A stretch of DNA of 64,000 bases from Auricularia sp. M13. Its lineage: Eukaryota > Basidiomycota > Agaricomycetes > Auriculariales > Auriculariaceae. The notes under the pieces were generated by a model. The model saw only the letters and a program-made list of their open reading frames with translations, searched no databases and was not told the DNA's origin. Below, in pieces: positions 47,002-56,350 of the stretch (its first letter is position 1; every line of letters starts with the position of its first letter). Both the position numbers and the translations under genes were made by a program. Location of the stretch: the NCBI GenBank assembly GCA_037042915.1, contig CM073198.1, forward strand, positions 1,922,001 through 1,986,000. The letters run 5' to 3'.

Positions 47002-48465
47002 ATGGCCACCATCGCGCTCTCCCGCACCGGGCAGAAGGTATGCACACGTTCCCACGCGTCGCCAGGCTCGTTCTAAGTCGTCGATCGCGTAGATGCCGCT
47101 CGTCGGGTACGTACTCACTGCGGATAGATTATCGCGCACGAGATCTAACGGCGACGTCCATTTAGCTTCGGTCTCTGGAAGGTTTGTCTCCTACTACACT
47201 GGCTGGCTGGCGCATACTAAGATCGCGCTGCTCTTCAGGTCACCAAGTCTACGACGGCCGATGTGCGTTTCGAGTGGTGCCAGCGTGGCATTTCCTATCT
47301 CACCCGTCAATCGTGGCGTTTGTAGACTGTCTACAAGGCCCTCCAGGCTGGCTACCGCCTCCTTGACGGCGCTGGCGACTACGGCAACGAGAAAGAGGCC
47401 GGTGAGGGTCTTGCGCGCGCGATCAAGGATGGCATCGTCAAGCGCGAGGATGTCTGTGAGTAGCTTAACGTTTGTACTTGCGATTTCTTACTCACAAGCT
47501 CCCAGTCGTGACCTCAAAGGTATTGTTCAGGTACAAAGCACTCAAACAGCTGTTCATATTCTGTCTCTAGCTCTGGAACACCTTCCACGCTAAGGAGCAC
47601 GTGAGTGATCTCATGTTGACAACTCAAGGGCGGCACCCTCACAAGGCACACAGGTCGCCAAGCTGGCCAAGAAGCAGCTCGCAGACTGGCAGCTCGACTA
47701 CTTCGACCTCTTCCTCATCCACTTCCCGATCGCGCTCAAGTACGTCGACCCGGAGACGCGCTACCCGCCGGAGTGGTTCTACGACGGCAAGAGCCAGGTC
47801 GAGCTGCAGGACACGCCGTACCAGGAGACGTACCAGGCGATGGAGGAGCTCGTCGACGCTGGCCTCGCGAAGAACATCGGCATCAGCAACGTCGCGGGCG
47901 CACTGCTCATCGACGTGCTGCGCTACGCGCGCATCAAGCCCGCCGTGCTGCAGGTCGAACTCCACCCGTACCTCCCGCAGGACCAGCTCGTCGCGCTCTG
48001 CAAGCGCCACGAAATCGCCATCACCGCGTACTGCAGCTTCGGCCCCGCGTCCTGGATCGAGCTCAACATGCACCAGCATGTTGCCAGCCTGCTCGACCAC
48101 GACGTCGTGGCGAAGGTCGCTAGCAAGCACCAAAAGAGTGCGTTTAGCTTGGATGTCTGCTTAATAGAAAGGGTTGCTGATCTCATCGCTTGCCCGACAG
48201 CTCCCGCGCAGGTGCTGCTCCGTTGGGCGTCGCAGCGTGGCATCGCGGTCGTCCCCAAGAGCAACAACCACGACCGTCTCATCCAGAATCTCAACCACAC
48301 CGACGTCACCCTCACCGACGAGGACTTCAAGACGCTCGCGACCCTCAACCAGAACCTTCGGTGAGTTCTTCTTTGAGTGCCAATGTTCTGGCGCTGACGA
48401 TACATATAATGCACAGCTTCAACGACCCGGGCGACATCGACGTTCGCCTCTCCATCTTCGCGTGA
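47002..48465 (+). CDS. xyl1: NAD(P)H-dependent D-xylose reductase (aldo-keto reductase)
   Basis: Reduces D-xylose to xylitol, the first step of fungal pentose use, in the cytosol. The N-terminus reads [23 protein letters not shown] after splicing. The AKR catalytic tetrad is present: Asp in [11 protein letters not shown], Tyr in the same motif, Lys in VTSKLWN, His in [11 protein letters not shown]. The coenzyme loop [10 protein letters not shown] carries the Lys-Ser-Asn-x-x-Arg pattern for the NADP(H) phosphate. The C-terminus is short, [15 protein letters not shown]. The 5' half is cut into very small exons: 14 nt (ATGCCGCTCGTCGG), 16 nt, 24 nt and another 14 nt (TCGTGACCTCAAAG), all with GT-AG borders. 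The length is close to that of known xylose reductases (about 320 residues). Symbol follows the yeast/fungal convention. Confidence 0.9.
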
Positions 48466-48969: not shown

Positions 48970-51900
48970 CTAATGCTGCGTTACAACAATTTTGGGGAGA
49001 GGTTTCATGTGATTACCCCCGATAGTATGGTCTCTGTACCATTCTGCAAAATCGCTGAACAAAGAAGGGTTTGGCATCACGCGGGGTAGAGCATGGAGCA
49101 CTGTCGCTCCGCCGGAAAAAGGGGTCGCTGCATTACCATTGCTCTCAGGCGGGGGCGGGGATGCCCTCTTTGCAGCGCTCCCGTATTTTGTGAAACGGTC
49201 ATCGAGGCTGTCCCACATGCGCACTGTGCCGTCGACCTTGGATCCTGCGGCAACGTGGGAATTCGCTGGCGAGGTAGCCACCTCGACCTTCTCATCGAGA
49301 TCGATGTTGAAGACGATGCCCACCTCGCCCGTTGATATGTCAGCGTCCCACCCAATGATACTGGTTCTACACCAGCTGTGGTGTACAGCGACAATTAGTT
49401 GGCCATTGTTCGTGAAGGTGAGACTCTTCGTCCAGAGTGTCTCGTTCGACACGTCCGGGACACAGAAGAGCAGCTCAAACGACCCGGTGTCCCAAACGCC
49501 AAAATCGCGATTGGCTGGGTCGCACTGTCCAACGAGCCGAAGTGAGTCTGGTGATATCGCGCATTGGGCTTCTGCACGGTGAAGCAACCCACAGATACGC
49601 CCTGAATGCACTGGCGCCTGGCTAGCGCCAAATGTATCCCACCACGTAATCCGCCCAGAGCATGAGACACAGACAAACCGGTGACCCCCGCATGAGAAAG
49701 AGATGGATGCGATGTGAGTGCGATGAAAGAAGGGCCCCATTTCTGCCAGCGCAGGCACTGGAATGTTGGCCCCTCCCAACCTGCATAGTCCGTGCCCTTT
49801 CTCTTCTGCATCACACGGGCCCTGAAGCAGGCGACCAGTATCAGCCTCCCACATGTACCAGTTGCGGTGATTGGCCGTTACGATGTAGTTCCCGTCCGGG
49901 GATATGGCAATGCACGTGATGGGTAGCTGGTAGGCAAGTCTATCCAGAATACGACGACCCGTCTCGCCGTTCCAGACTTGAATTCCCGAGTTCTCTGACA
50001 CCGTCGCAATGCGCCGAGCACACAGAGATACCGCAAGCATGACGACATTGCTGGTTGGGTCTATCCTAGATCCAGCGCTCCATAGACCTTTGGCAGAATC
50101 GAAGATATGCATAACGTGGTCGGAATCCACCGAGATGACGAATTTCCCATCTGGGCTGAACGCCAATGAAGTTATCTCGCTCTTATGACCATAGAAGGGC
50201 TGTACGAGGAGCTCTGCGGGCTGACGTCAGTACTACTACGACTAAGTGGACTTTGGAGGTGAGATCTTACGAGTCATGAGATGAGCTTTAGCCCATTTAG
50301 CGTGCTCCATCAATTGGTACTGAGAGAGCAAGTTCACTAGAATCTCGACTTCTTTAACAGGACTTTTCGCAATTTTCAAAACCGTGTCTGAAATCTTGAT
50401 ACGTTGTTTGAGGAATGCATCGATGATATCGACAGCCACCATTTGGGCGAGTTTGTCCTCCACGATATCGCGTGCCAGAGACCAAAGCCGACCAATGCAG
50501 ATACGGAGTGCGGCAGCAGCAGCACGTGATGCGCCTTCCCACAGCTGTCCGAGTCCTGCATCACAGTGAAAAACAGGACTACGATAAACGATCAAAGATA
50601 CCTATAGAAATGTGTACAGCCTGAAGCCAGACACGGTCGTCCATATAGACCGAGTTGAGATGGTCTTCGAATGCCGAATCCTCCACCATGTGTTTTGTAA
50701 GACGGAAAGCAAGCCGTTCATTCATGCAGCCTAACGGGACATCCACATGTTGTGCGCGCCAAGTACTGGGGCTGTCCGCTTGAAGCTTCCGCAGCGTCTG
50801 CAAGGAAAGGAGGACGTGGGAAGCAAGCGGCCTTTGGCTGGGGTTGGGATTGCAGCATTCAAGGACAAGCCACCAGAGCCTGTCCGGTGTATCGTCCGTA
50901 CGTGACGGCCACATACGCCCTCCAAGAGCGCGCATGACAGCTGTTTCGTTATCGAGATGGTAATAAGGTGCTCGACCCGTCTGCACCTGCAAATTTTAAG
51001 TTTCTGCTTGGCGATATGCATTGCATTGGCGCCGGACCTCAAGTAAAAGACATCCGACCGCCCAGACGTCACTTTGCGTGGTGTGCCGTGAAGCATCTTC
51101 CGCAAAGAGCTCTGGCGCCATCCAGCGGGTGGTTCCCTTCGCCATTGTATGCAACGTGAATGATTTTGAGTGCTCTGCTAGAACAGATGCGAGACCGAAA
51201 TCGCTGAGGCACGCCACACCCTCATTCGAAATCAAGACGTTTGCCTAGAAGAGAATGCAATACCTTAGCGTGCCTCCGTCAGGGAGTAAGACGACGTACG
51301 CCTTTAATGTCTGCATGGACGATGGCAGGATGATACTCGTGGACTTTATAAGTGGTCAATCCTGTGAGCTTTAAGCGAAGGATGCCGCCGTACGGTATCT
51401 CAAGCCTTGAAGGACCTCCTCCAGCTGTTCAGTGACATTCTTCGTCAATTCCGACTCGCACGATTCTGTAAATTGATGTAAAGCACTGACCAGCTTCAAT
51501 TTCAGCCCATCAATATCCTCGTGGTTCTGATTTGCTCGAAGATACTTCCTTATATCGCCATTTTCACACCAAGGAGAGACCATCGCCGGGAGATCGCCCA
51601 GTTCCCAGTGCAATCCGTAGAGAGGAAGGATGTTCTCGTGGAGGACTTCATGCCACACAGATATCTCACGAGCGTGTCGAGCCTGGTTGAATCGAGTCAC
51701 TTGCCCCAACTTTGCATAATATACTGCTACGCAAACCAACCTGGAACGTGAACGTCGGCTCTTTGTCTGCATAGGCGTCGCGGGTGTCGCGGAAAATCTT
51801 CACGGCGACCTGGAAGACGGTGACATTCGTCCGCTGGAGCAGGATGCAAACTTGACACACTTTTTTAGCGACAGCGCCGGACCGGTTCCAGAAAGCGCTG

Positions 51901-52762
51901 TGGACGTCGGAGAATCCACCAAGACCCAACCGTTCGGACAGATCGCTTAACTCGTGGCTAAGGTCTGGCACCCCGATGAATGAGCGGTAGTACACTGATC
52001 AGCATGGTCAGTAGCGATTCTGGACGACTTTCTAGTAGTTATTGGTACCGTTATCTTTGGCGATAGCCGTTTTGGCCCGAGGCGGACCAACGCGTGCTTG
52101 AGTATTGGAGTTTGTAGTCGATTCACTGTCACCGCGCAAATTGCCCGTGGAAACGACGCCAAGAATTAAAGCGGCCGCTCGCCTAGCCGCAGCGAGTTTG
52201 CTCTCATCCGTCAGCAAACTTTCGAGTCGTTCTGCCGCCTGTCGAATGGCGGGGGCGCGGTCTCGATCACGCTCTTCGACGGATGTGTAGGACAAACACG
52301 CGCGAATGGCAGCGATGTTGTCTCGTAGATGGGAGACGAATAGCTCCGAGCCGGTGTGAAGAAGATAATCAACCAACAGCAAAGACTGCAGGGAGGTTAA
52401 AAGCGAACAGCTATAATGTGGCCACTATGCGCACCTTGAACACACGGCGCCATGAAGCGAAATGGAGCGTGAGGCGTGTCGACACCGCACGAACCAAGGT
52501 AGCGCAATCTTCGCTGGTTTCATTTGGTAAAACAAGAAACTTTCAAAAGGTAAACGGAATCTCGTAGCACTCACGCGTCATGGGTCATGAGCCTGAGTTC
52601 ATCTAATTGCGGGAATGTTGCGTCGTCGATATCGTTGCTCGTCACATCCCGCACTTTGCGTTCAACGTAGCTGTGGATTCTATTAGTTGCGAGAGTCGAG
52701 GAAACGGGTGAATACCTGGGTGTAAAGCCTGCGATGCCCTGACCAGCATCGTGCTCCGTCAT
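48970..52762 (-). CDS. ENTH domain - protein kinase - WD40 repeat fusion protein
   Basis: About 1,050-1,100 residues in many exons, all joining in phase. Order: (1) from MTEHDAGQG, an ENTH-like helical domain (VRDVTSND, FPQLDELRLMTHDAED, ASWRRVFKSLLLVDYLLHTG, LRDNIAAIRA, AERLESLLTDESKL), matching the epsin pattern that binds phosphoinositides; (2) a kinase domain of TKL-like type with Gly loop LGLGGFSDV, VAVK, HENILPLYG, catalytic HADIKGANVLI, SDFGLA and GTTRWMAPELF; all catalytic residues are present; (3) a helical linker; (4) a WD40-like propeller (EITSLAFSPDGKF, ITCIAISPDGNYIV, GTVRMWDSL). The exon joining ENTH to kinase (intron about 52000-52052) enters the kinase with no Met before the Gly loop, and the exon into WD40 (intron about 50222-50271) joins without a stop. 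The C-terminus after the propeller is short. Likely a membrane-recruited signalling kinase; the function is inferred. Confidence 0.85.
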
Positions 52763-53658
52763 GTGAGTGTTCGGTGATTGAGCCACGAATGAGCGACGAT
52801 TGGGAGAACACAGGGTATGTATATGAAGAACGAGCGCAGATGAACAACGAGCTTTTGCGGCCGTTGACCGCAATTGGGTAAGCTCACGGGAGCTGAACGG
52901 CGACCAGGTGGCGAGCGTTTCCGAACGCAACAGCGGGAAAATGAGCGCACTGCGATCCCAGCGGAATCGCTCGAGGGTCGTGTTCAGGCAGTGGCTATGG
53001 AGCGCCTCGTTGGTCGCTTCCTGGTTGACTATCTGTAGGTGCTCTCCGGCTATTCCTTGCAGGGTTCCGCTGCTGTCTCTCCTCAACCTCACAGTTGGAG
53101 CAGAGTCCCAAGTAGAGACGGCGACATCGTCGCGACATCCAACTTGATGCGAATGAGTGGCACGGACTCAAACGCACATAACTTCAGACACGAAGCGCTC
53201 TTGGAGGAGGGTCCAGAGGTAAGTTGTCGGGCTAAGTGTCACTGCTGCAATGTCTTGTGTGGACCTTCTGCGGTGCGTTCTCAGCTGTCCGATAGAGCAT
53301 CCTGGTCGAATAGTCAGCACACCCACATTTTTTTTCTATGAGCGCCTCTCGATATTAGCAGAGAGTGAGCGCCCGAAGCTGTCACGGATACAGTTGGAAT
53401 TGGGTTGGTCGCCGATGTTTGTCTATTGTCCAGAACTGGCGGAGAGAAAACAAAAGCATTCTAGCATGTTCCGTGTTGAATAGAGGGTGCGCAGCGCCGC
53501 CAGGAAGCCGGACGCCATCTGGGCTGAGGCTGCGCATGGGTCTGTAGGCTGCGCAGGCTGCGAGTCTTGCGGACCCAGGGGCGTGGCGGGACTGTCAGGA
53601 GTCAAAAGAGCCGGGAAGTGGCGGATACTCCGCTCGTGCATCTCTTGCTTCGACTATC
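52763..53658. other. Divergent intergenic region with coding-like fragments
   Basis: Between the ENTH-kinase gene (minus) and the PB1 gene (plus). Short coding-like pieces occur on both strands (plus: LLNLTVGAESQVETATSS near 53075, and ERLSILAESERPKLSRIQ near 53340; minus: SVPLIRIKLDVATM near 53160) but cannot be joined. Perhaps the remains of an F-box or leucine-rich gene. Confidence 0.3.
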
Positions 53659-56350
53659 ATGTCGACACTCCCCATTCACTTCAAACTCTCCAAACCAGGC
53701 GACTCCACGCGCAAGGTCGGCTTTGACGAGCCCCCGTCGTGGATGCTGCTGGCGGCCAAGGTCGAGGAACTCTTCCACGTCCCCGGCGATCATCTCGGGC
53801 TCGTTTACCTCGACGACGAGGGCGACAGAGTCACGCTCAGCTCGCAGCAGGAGCTGAACGAGTTTTACGCGACCGCCAAGCAACCGTACAAGTTCGTTAT
53901 CAAGGACCTCTCGGCGTCGCAGGACCCGTCGCTTGTCGACGACGACTTCCGCAGCTATGCCCACAGTCACGCCGGCGGCGACAAGCACAAGGCGCCCCCG
54001 TCGCCATTCATCAACCTTGGCGGAATCCCAATAGCGTTTGAGGTTATGGATGACGGGTTCCCCATCGACCTGCTGCGCGCCCAGTCGGTGGCGAAAGGCC
54101 GCGCAGGCAGCACCGCCTATGTCGAGGAATTGGGCACCGCGAGCAGGCGCAGCACGCCCGCCAACACCCAGGATAAGACCACCCCCGAGGACAAGGACAA
54201 GGGCAAGGGCCGCATGCAACCCAGCGTTGCCGATTTCGAGGACCTCGGCGACGCAGCTGAGGTAGTGTCGCATGCGTCCATGGACGGCTCATTCGCGGCG
54301 CGCGGTGACACGGAGAAGCCGCCTGTGCACGTCTTTGACGCTAAGCACGACACAACCGTTACGATCGAGGAGCAGAAAGAGGATCCAGGCAGCTTCCTCG
54401 AGCGCGTGCTTAATCTCGGACGCCGCGAGCGCGGCGAAGAGGGCGCAGCCCCCGATCCGCCGCTTGCTCCCATCGAGGACAAGCCCAAGCCTCCGCCGCC
54501 GTCGCTCGTCAAGGACCTGGCAGACGTGATGCAGCAGCTCGCAATCACGACGGCCGCGCACCCTGAACTAACCGAGAGTGTGCGCGCCATGCTGCGCAAT
54601 GTCGCCGAGGGCGCCTACTGGTCCAACGACGCCTCGCGCCAGCTCCCGAACGAAACCGAAGAGGCGCGCGCAGGAATGCGTCTGGCGGATTCCGTGGGGG
54701 ACCTGTTCAAGGCGCTCGGCGCGGGGGTCGCACGCGAGGTGGCGACGCAGCTTTCGGACTCCCTGCCCAACGGCCCAGGCCAGCCGCCGCGCCCCCGGTC
54801 TCCGCCGCGCGAGCGCCGTGGCTGGGACCGCGTGCGCGACCGTATGTTCCCGGGCGGCGTCCCACGTGCGCCCTACCCGCCGTACGGTCCCCCGCCGCCT
54901 GGACCGCGCGGACCATTCAATCACCCATATCCCTACCCGCCTCCAGGCCCGCCGCCGCCCCCGCCGCCGCCAGGCGCACCCCGCTATCCCATCGCGCCCA
55001 TGCCGCCGGGCGAGCGCTTCGACATCTGGAACCCGCGCAACTTCCCTGCGCTGCGCCGCGCGCAGACCTACCCCGCGCCGCCCGGCGCACCGATGCCGCC
55101 GCCCCCGCCCCCGCCAGCGCCCGTGCCCCCGCCAGCGCCCGTGCCCCCGCCGGCAGTGCGCCCTCAGCCTACCATTCAGTTCGCCCCGCCGCCGCAGATC
55201 CCACCGCGCCCGAATCTCGAGGTCGCCCGGCACATCCCGCCGGTCCCGCCGGCGCCCGCGTCGCTGGACGACCGCCGCGCGGCGCTCGAGGCGACCAAGC
55301 AGGCGTACATCGAGGCCAAGGAGGCGTACCGCCGCGAGCGAGAAGGAGGAGCGCCGGCGCGAGAAGGAGCGCCTTGCGCGCGAAAGGACGGGCTTTGCTG
55401 CGCTCCCGACGGCTGGCGCGTGAGTGGCTCCCCGCTTTTTATATGAATGTACACATATGTTGATGCGAACACGTTTTTCTTTACATATACCTGCCCCCCT
55501 TTCACGCTTTCAGTGCGGCGACTGCGACTACCAATGCGAGTGAAGCGACGCCCTTGCCGCCGCCAGAGAATGAGCGTGACAGGGATGACAACCCGTTCAA
55601 GCCGACGCACAGGACGTCGCCGCTCGTACGCGCGGCAGACATCCCGGAGGTGCCGCCGCCGCCGATGCACCCCGTCGACGTGCGCGAGCCAGAGCCGGAG
55701 CCGGAGCCGACGAAGAGCAGCGAGTTCACGCTCGAGCGTGCGCCCGCGGACGTCAAGCCCGAGCGCACGTTCACCAAGATGGCGTACAGCCCGGCGCAGT
55801 TCCGCTCGGCCTTTGCGCCGGTGTCGCCGCTCCCGCCTCGGGCGAGGGCCGAGGCGGGCAACCCGTTCGGCTCGCGCCTGCAGGCACCCAATACGGCTGC
55901 GTCGTCCGCTAGTCCTGGCCCCGCTCGTGGGGCGAACCCGTTCGGCGCGGCTGCGAATAACCTGGGAAGCATCTTCGGCGTCGCGAACGCGCTCATGGGC
56001 GCGCCGTTCGGCACCGCACCATTCGGCGGCGGCAGCGCGGCTACGCCTCAGACTCAGAGCGCAGTCACGGACAGGATCCTGGCGCGCCTGGCAGATGTAC
56101 GTCTTCCCCTTGCTCCCGTTCTCCCTCCTCCCTCTGTGTGTGTGCTGACTGACCATGGCGTTCGCAGATGGGGTTCACCCAGGCGGACCACCCGGACCTG
56201 CCGAGCCGCGTCGCGCGCCATCTCCGGCCGACGCTGCGCCCGACGAGCGAGGCGGAGGACGCGATCGTCGTGCGCCTCCTCGAGGAGCTCCTCGCGAATA
56301 CCGCCGGGTCGTCGAATCAGCAGCAGCGCGTCCCCGGCGCGTTCTCGTAG
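53659..56350 (+). CDS. PB1 domain protein with UBA-like C-terminus, apparent frameshift
   Basis: The N-terminal 85 residues form a PB1 domain: PIHFKLSKPGDSTRKVGF (basic Lys), WMLLAAKVEELF, HLGLVYLDDEGDRVTLSSQQEL (the acidic OPCA-type motif). A very long Pro-rich region follows, then a charged helix (EAKEAYRRER), and the last exon encodes ILARLADMGFTQADHPDL, UBA-like. PB1 plus UBA is the plan of p62/NBR1 autophagy receptors; no ZZ domain is seen. FEDL flanked by acids (near residue 195) could be an Atg8-binding motif. The frame breaks near 55338-55341: YRRER is followed, in another frame, by EKEERRREKERLARERTGF, consistent with loss of 2 bp in a CGCGAG repeat. Introns at about 55421-55515 and 56097-56167. 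Could be a sequencing error or a real lesion. Confidence 0.65.

Follow-up and report, generated by a model that had tools for sequence, protein, structure and literature searches.

We found a gene in Auricularia sp. M13 that joins an ENTH domain, a TKL-type protein kinase, a linker and a WD40 region in one predicted reading frame, and the same domain order occurs at three other loci of the genome. In our judgement this is very likely a real gene and a real fusion, part of a family with four or more paralogous members in this fungus. The best reading of its sequence is that it may encode a signalling kinase linked to membranes or trafficking, with known parts arranged in a new architecture. The stretch of DNA analysed here (the window, 64,000 nucleotides) corresponds to C6:1922001-1986000; the genome comprises 52.1 Mb on 14 contigs.

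Gene model

The gene lies on the minus strand (52762-48970) and is predicted to have 13 exons, with 1049 codons and a single terminal stop (Table 1). All 12 introns are of the GT-AG type and 45-66 nt long, and the phases are consistent across the whole predicted model. For intron 6 and the last intron, other splice joins were rejected because they break the reading frame. A first-pass annotation of this DNA had placed an ATG at 52762 and a stop ending at 48970 on the minus strand, and had read an ENTH domain, a TKL-like kinase, a linker and WD40 repeats in that order and in one phase-consistent frame. The start and stop fit our model, and both the 13-exon structure and the Pfam matches agree with the order. 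The two junctions that it had singled out, 52000-52052 and 50222-50271, lie close to model introns at 52048-51995 and 50270-50214, the latter being the 57-nt intron between the linker and the WD40 exon. It had also proposed a Pfam domain search, in which ENTH, kinase and WD40 were all matched.

Upstream of the ATG, the frame is open to 53167 and contains no other in-frame ATG. Intron 1 may be coding instead of spliced, which would give a protein of 1064 aa; the PF01417 score, 85.6 bits for the spliced and 85.4 bits for the unspliced reading, does not decide between the two. On the plus strand, a convergent aldo/keto reductase reading frame (47609-48361, PF00248, 91.3 bits) lies about 0.5 kb from the stop of the kinase gene, and a divergent reading frame (53548-55443) combines a PB1 match of 34.9 bits with an extended proline-rich part.

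Table 1. Features of the predicted ENTH-kinase-WD40 gene in the window, and its paralogues elsewhere in the genome
Feature	Position	Strand	Basis
Exon 1, ATG 52762, N-terminal stretch	52716..52762	-	splice model
Putative intron 1, 45 nt	52671..52715	-	in frame, stop-free
ENTH domain, exons 2-4	52194..52664	-	PF01417 profile
Intron between ENTH exon 4 and kinase exon 5, 54 nt, phase 1	51995..52048	-	splice model
TKL-type protein kinase, exons 5 to early 11	50780..51994	-	PF07714
Linker: rest of exon 11, exon 12, last intron	50214..50779	-	helical by eye only
WD40 region, single exon 13 to stop codon	48970..50213	-	PF00400
Paralogue L047	C8:1276k		tblastn and spliced alignment
Paralogue L048	C3:4110k		tblastn and spliced alignment
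Paralogue L049	C8:1000k		tblastn and spliced alignment

Domains of the predicted protein

The ENTH domain is complete: the first 192 residues match PF01417 at 85.4 bits (cut-off 24) over profile positions 4-124 of 124, and the domain was also met as an exon-level Pfam match in the genome search. By its sequence it is an epsin-type ENTH. Among solved structures it matches 15 distinct sequences at E <= 0.001, all of them epsin or epsin-like by name (one is Clathrin interactor 1), and the best solved relative is epsin 1 (5lp0, 8.6e-17). The lipid contacts of epsin in helix 0 and in the PI(4,5)P2 pocket we take to be R8, K11, R25, N30, R63, K69, H73 and K76. By this list and an ungapped match to 1h0a, the window ENTH retains R25, N30, R63 and K76, and has A in place of K69 and R in place of H73. 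Helix-0 positions 8 and 11 are non-basic in both the spliced and the unspliced reading of exon 1, the unspliced reading having two arginines near the helix-0 positions. In the ENTH domains of the paralogues the pocket residues are eroded, and of R25, N30, R63 and K76 only K76 is present in all of them. The absence of the helix-0 basic residues and the presence of K76 alone in all paralogues make phosphoinositide binding uncertain, and the first-pass proposal of a kinase brought to phosphoinositide membranes is weakened by these same features. Scaffolding by the WD40 repeats and an endocytic role, also suggested there, gained no support from the sequence. Membrane recruitment via the ENTH is possible.

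The kinase part contains the motifs VAVK, RHAREI, HADIKGAN, DFG and APE. It scored 138.6 bits with PF07714 and 138.5 bits with PF00069, with a query in which two exon joins were set otherwise than in the final model. Among solved structures it scores best with B-Raf/Raf (102.8 bits for B-Raf). As judged from the Pfam profile and these Raf-type relatives, the kinase belongs to the TKL group. The window kinase has the Gly loop, the VAVK Lys, the helix-C Glu, the HxD Asp, the Asn, DFG and APE. In all four copies the Lys, the Glu, HxD, the catalytic-loop Lys and Asn, DFG and APE are unchanged, and the glycine loop is whole in the window copy only. The kinase had been described as possessing all catalytic residues. 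This holds for the catalytic Lys, Glu, Asp and Asn and for DFG and APE, and fails at the Arg of HRD, which is Ala in the window copy (HAD) and Gly in the three paralogues (HGD); the kinase is thus of the non-RD type. From this residue content the window kinase is predicted to be catalytically active.

The linker behind the kinase gave no Pfam match up to E 10. The WD40 region matches PF00400 at 72.5 bits in three stretches, and its exon is open for 413 aa, as against a maximum of 251 in 500 single-base shuffles of exon 13. An AlphaFold2 prediction for this exon, from the single sequence without an alignment, had a mean pLDDT of 34. The Pfam matches listed for the four parts, ENTH, kinase, linker and WD40 (for the last, the best 25 of 33 families), include neither NACHT nor NB-ARC.

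One gene with three paralogues

We considered whether two neighbours, an epsin-like gene and a kinase-WD40 gene, had been wrongly joined in our reading. ENTH exon 4 can continue to a stop just within the intron, as two separate genes would allow. On the other hand, the gap from ENTH to kinase is merely 54 nt, and the exon phases fit across the junction. No ATG stands in frame within kinase exon 5, and three codons upstream of its first full codon the frame is closed by a stop. Behind the ENTH, Met first appears at residue 288, past the VAVK lysine (residue 235), so that a kinase starting there would lack the ATP-binding lobe. A separate start codon for the kinase had been named in the first-pass annotation as a finding that would speak against the fusion, and none is usable before the ATP lysine. 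Three diverged paralogues with the identical domain order also argue against a misjoin. Because the kinase lacks a start of its own, the gap spans only 54 nt and the paralogues repeat the order, we rejected the misjoin and consider it highly improbable.

The protein search of the fungus's own genome gave 78 exon-level matches, the window's own included, and 13 stretches were examined, namely the window locus and 12 others. With the window protein as the tblastn query, ENTH, kinase and WD40 were found in that order in three of the 12 other stretches, the ENTH part of L048 being weak (E 0.002). The view of a real single gene is borne out by this recurrence of its domain order at three other loci. 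The paralogues were modelled by spliced alignment guided by the window protein with stops punished, a procedure that favours similarity and open frames. The models of L047, L048 and L049 use 11, 12 and 12 exons, respectively, with provisional start codons, and extra small exons proposed by the aligner at the 3' ends were left out as untrustworthy. Pfam scored the ENTH of the guided front parts at 48.2, 47.1 and 44.7 bits and the WD40 of the guided models at 103.7, 77.3 and 107.4 bits, in the same order. The ENTH exon at C8:1276k was found independently by Pfam in the unspliced genome (30.1 bits). That search missed the ENTH domains of L048 and L049, suggesting that further weak copies may exist. 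As queries, the ENTH domains of L049 and L047 reach the window gene at 5.3e-4 and 0.02, respectively, and that of L047 reaches the epsin of this genome at 4.6e-4; apart from these and the query loci themselves, the two genome searches met only three places, at E 0.4-4.8. Compared with the window copy, the paralogues are 41-53% identical in the kinase, 27-37% in the ENTH and 23-29% in the linker (plus the first WD repeat). The linker of L047, used as a genome-search query, matches itself only, so the homology of the linkers rests on their position and on the 23-29% identity.

Probable common origin of the fusion

We placed the four fusion kinases together with 19 other kinases of this genome in an unrooted tree of 23 rows. 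The four lie on one side of a branch (99/96), and a branch with these four is present in 98% of 200 bootstrap trees. We then ran profiles of the aligned ENTH, linker and kinase parts over the open frames of 59 loci. The four members, and for the ENTH profile also the epsin, are matched by construction; beyond these, the ENTH profile found only an epsin-like gene at C3:3386k, and no linker or WD40 match occurred outside the four members among the 59 loci. In the examined stretches around 32 other kinase places, which for 25 of the 32 comprise a flank of about 1.5 kb only, there is no ENTH, linker or WD40 match. These 32 places are a minority of the kinome, as at least 147 exon matches to PF07714 occur in the genome.

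The genome also carries an ordinary epsin-type ENTH as a gene by itself (L055), in keeping with the earlier remark that the ENTH of the window gene stands outside its usual epsin setting. The ENTH introns of L055 lie at the THDA-aligned residues (phase 2) and behind WRHVWK (phase 0) and enclose an exon of 79 nt; they were removed by eye and their positions then placed by script. The window gene, which was spliced without reference to L055, has introns at both positions and in both phases (52574-52514, phase 2; 52434-52386, phase 0), again with a 79-nt exon between. Both positions and phases are kept in the three guided paralogue models, in which the exon lengths differ. This intron pattern, common to the four copies and the epsin, is in keeping with ENTH exons having been attached to a kinase gene at the DNA level. 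It could also be ancestral to ENTH genes generally; the introns of C3:3386k are poorly resolved.

The window ENTH is 37% identical to that of L055 when aligned with the paralogues, to which it is 27-37% identical; a second comparison with L055 gave 39% over 132 aa. Being no closer to its paralogues than to epsin, the ENTH alone cannot group the four. Taken together, the recurrence, the kinase branch and the kept intron positions look like one old fusion that was later duplicated, rather than a misjoin. Most likely, epsin-type ENTH exons would have been joined once, upstream of a TKL kinase gene, with the linker and WD40 part behind.

We also noted features of other kinases in the genome. The 31-nt exon of the window kinase occurs in all four of the other modelled kinases, and its 44-nt exon in two of the four. 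L050, L051, L052 and L057 are kinase relatives with no nearby ENTH or WD40 match, and each has the 31-nt exon, a lineage mark. The kinases at C11:2442086-2442874 (L017) and C11:6301-6993 (L027) are near-identical in the kinase tree. Two kinase places on C1, 979250-979765 (+) and 4662081-4662596 (-), have equal scores and both lie in 506-aa open frames; this pair is either a recent duplicate or an assembly repeat.

Comparison with known proteins

ENTH domains typically form the front of clathrin adaptors, and separate Ark/Prk-type kinases act on these adaptors. In epsins, clathrin/AP2/EH-binding and ubiquitin-interacting motifs follow the ENTH. The window gene resembles epsins (Ent1/Ent2, EPN1) in its complete ENTH profile and in the shared intron positions and phases, but differs in having no basic residues at the helix-0 positions and in the region behind the ENTH, where a kinase, a linker and WD40 repeats stand in place of those motifs. 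As a whole protein, it appears to fall outside the epsin family.

The window kinase has its best-scoring solved relatives among the Raf-like TKL kinases (B-Raf, CTR1), from which its HAD in place of HRD and its different companion domains set it apart. Its PF07714 match and Raf-type TKL likeness are shared with the expanded TKL kinases of fungi, while the window protein differs from these in carrying an ENTH, a linker and WD40 repeats. The main text of PMC2838846 describes unusual numbers of TKL kinases in Laccaria bicolor, and that of PMC3937382 describes extra domains in 16 of 241 members of the Agaricomycete FslK lineage. ENTH or WD40 is absent from the main texts of these two papers and of PMC5030230. 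Fungal NLR-type receptors with WD40 (HET-E/HET-D), as presented in passages of PMC10197012, are similar to the window protein in having C-terminal WD40 repeats with a signalling domain in front. Unlike them, the window protein has a kinase as its central domain and neither NACHT nor NB-ARC among its listed Pfam matches.

Our literature search found no description of an ENTH-kinase-WD40 fusion, which may still be published or present in domain databases. Viral contigs gave six stretches with the whole protein and 27 with the ENTH alignment, none of which was confirmed, and plasmids gave no match with the ENTH query. The kinase alignment gave 80 stretches in genome contigs, including two Planctomycete kinases at 26-31%. 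None of these three sets is a fungal collection, so their blanks are silent on the spread of the fusion among fungi.

Possible functions

How might such a protein work? The ENTH fold may dock it on a trafficking membrane or a trafficking protein, the WD40 part may bind a substrate or a regulator, and the non-RD kinase would then phosphorylate proteins at the docking site. Docking, substrate binding, kinase activity and pathway are all inferred in this joint mechanism, to which we give a little less than an even chance. The ENTH may instead have lost membrane binding and become a protein-interaction or autoinhibitory module, so that the protein would be a cytosolic sensor kinase in which the WD40 part senses, like the WD40 of fungal NLRs. 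Such a change would contest the mechanism and leave the fusion intact. The missing helix-0 basic residues and the eroded pockets of the paralogues are consistent with an ENTH that no longer binds membranes, yet in the window copy the residues equivalent to epsin R25, N30, R63 and K76 are still present. A sensor role is suggested by the ENTH and linker being less alike between copies (27-37% and 23-29%) than the kinase (41-53%), by the non-RD HxD in all four copies and by WD40 being, in passages of PMC10197012, one of the repeat types that commonly serve as C-terminal sensors in fungal NLRs; against it, no nucleotide-binding domain is among the Pfam matches listed. We regard the cytosolic sensor as a tentative alternative, distinctly below even chance.

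Conservation is low outside the kinase, three of the four copies have no intact glycine loop and the HAD motif is unusual, all of which could point to a decaying family, that is, a duplicate becoming a pseudogene or pseudokinase. However, the window gene is open through 13 exons, and the catalytic residues are invariant in all four copies at 41-53% identity, suggesting long selection. That the paralogue models have open frames counts for less against decay, because the aligner punished stops. Decay seems quite unlikely to us.

The preferred reading, a membrane- or trafficking-linked signalling kinase, can be extended more speculatively. The non-RD TKL kinases with ENTH and WD40 might be membrane-trafficking-linked surveillance kinases, in which the ENTH would read the state of the endocytic or endosomal membrane, the fast-evolving WD40 part would read a partner and the non-RD kinase would relay the signal. 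This extension is unlikely, though if true, the family would represent an NLR-like sensor without a nucleotide-binding switch. As predicted here, a single chain unites an adaptor domain and a kinase, and it belongs to a small family of paralogues in a TKL-rich fungus. The fusion would thereby offer a concrete handle on the roles of TKL kinases, through the location of the ENTH and the partners of the WD40 part.
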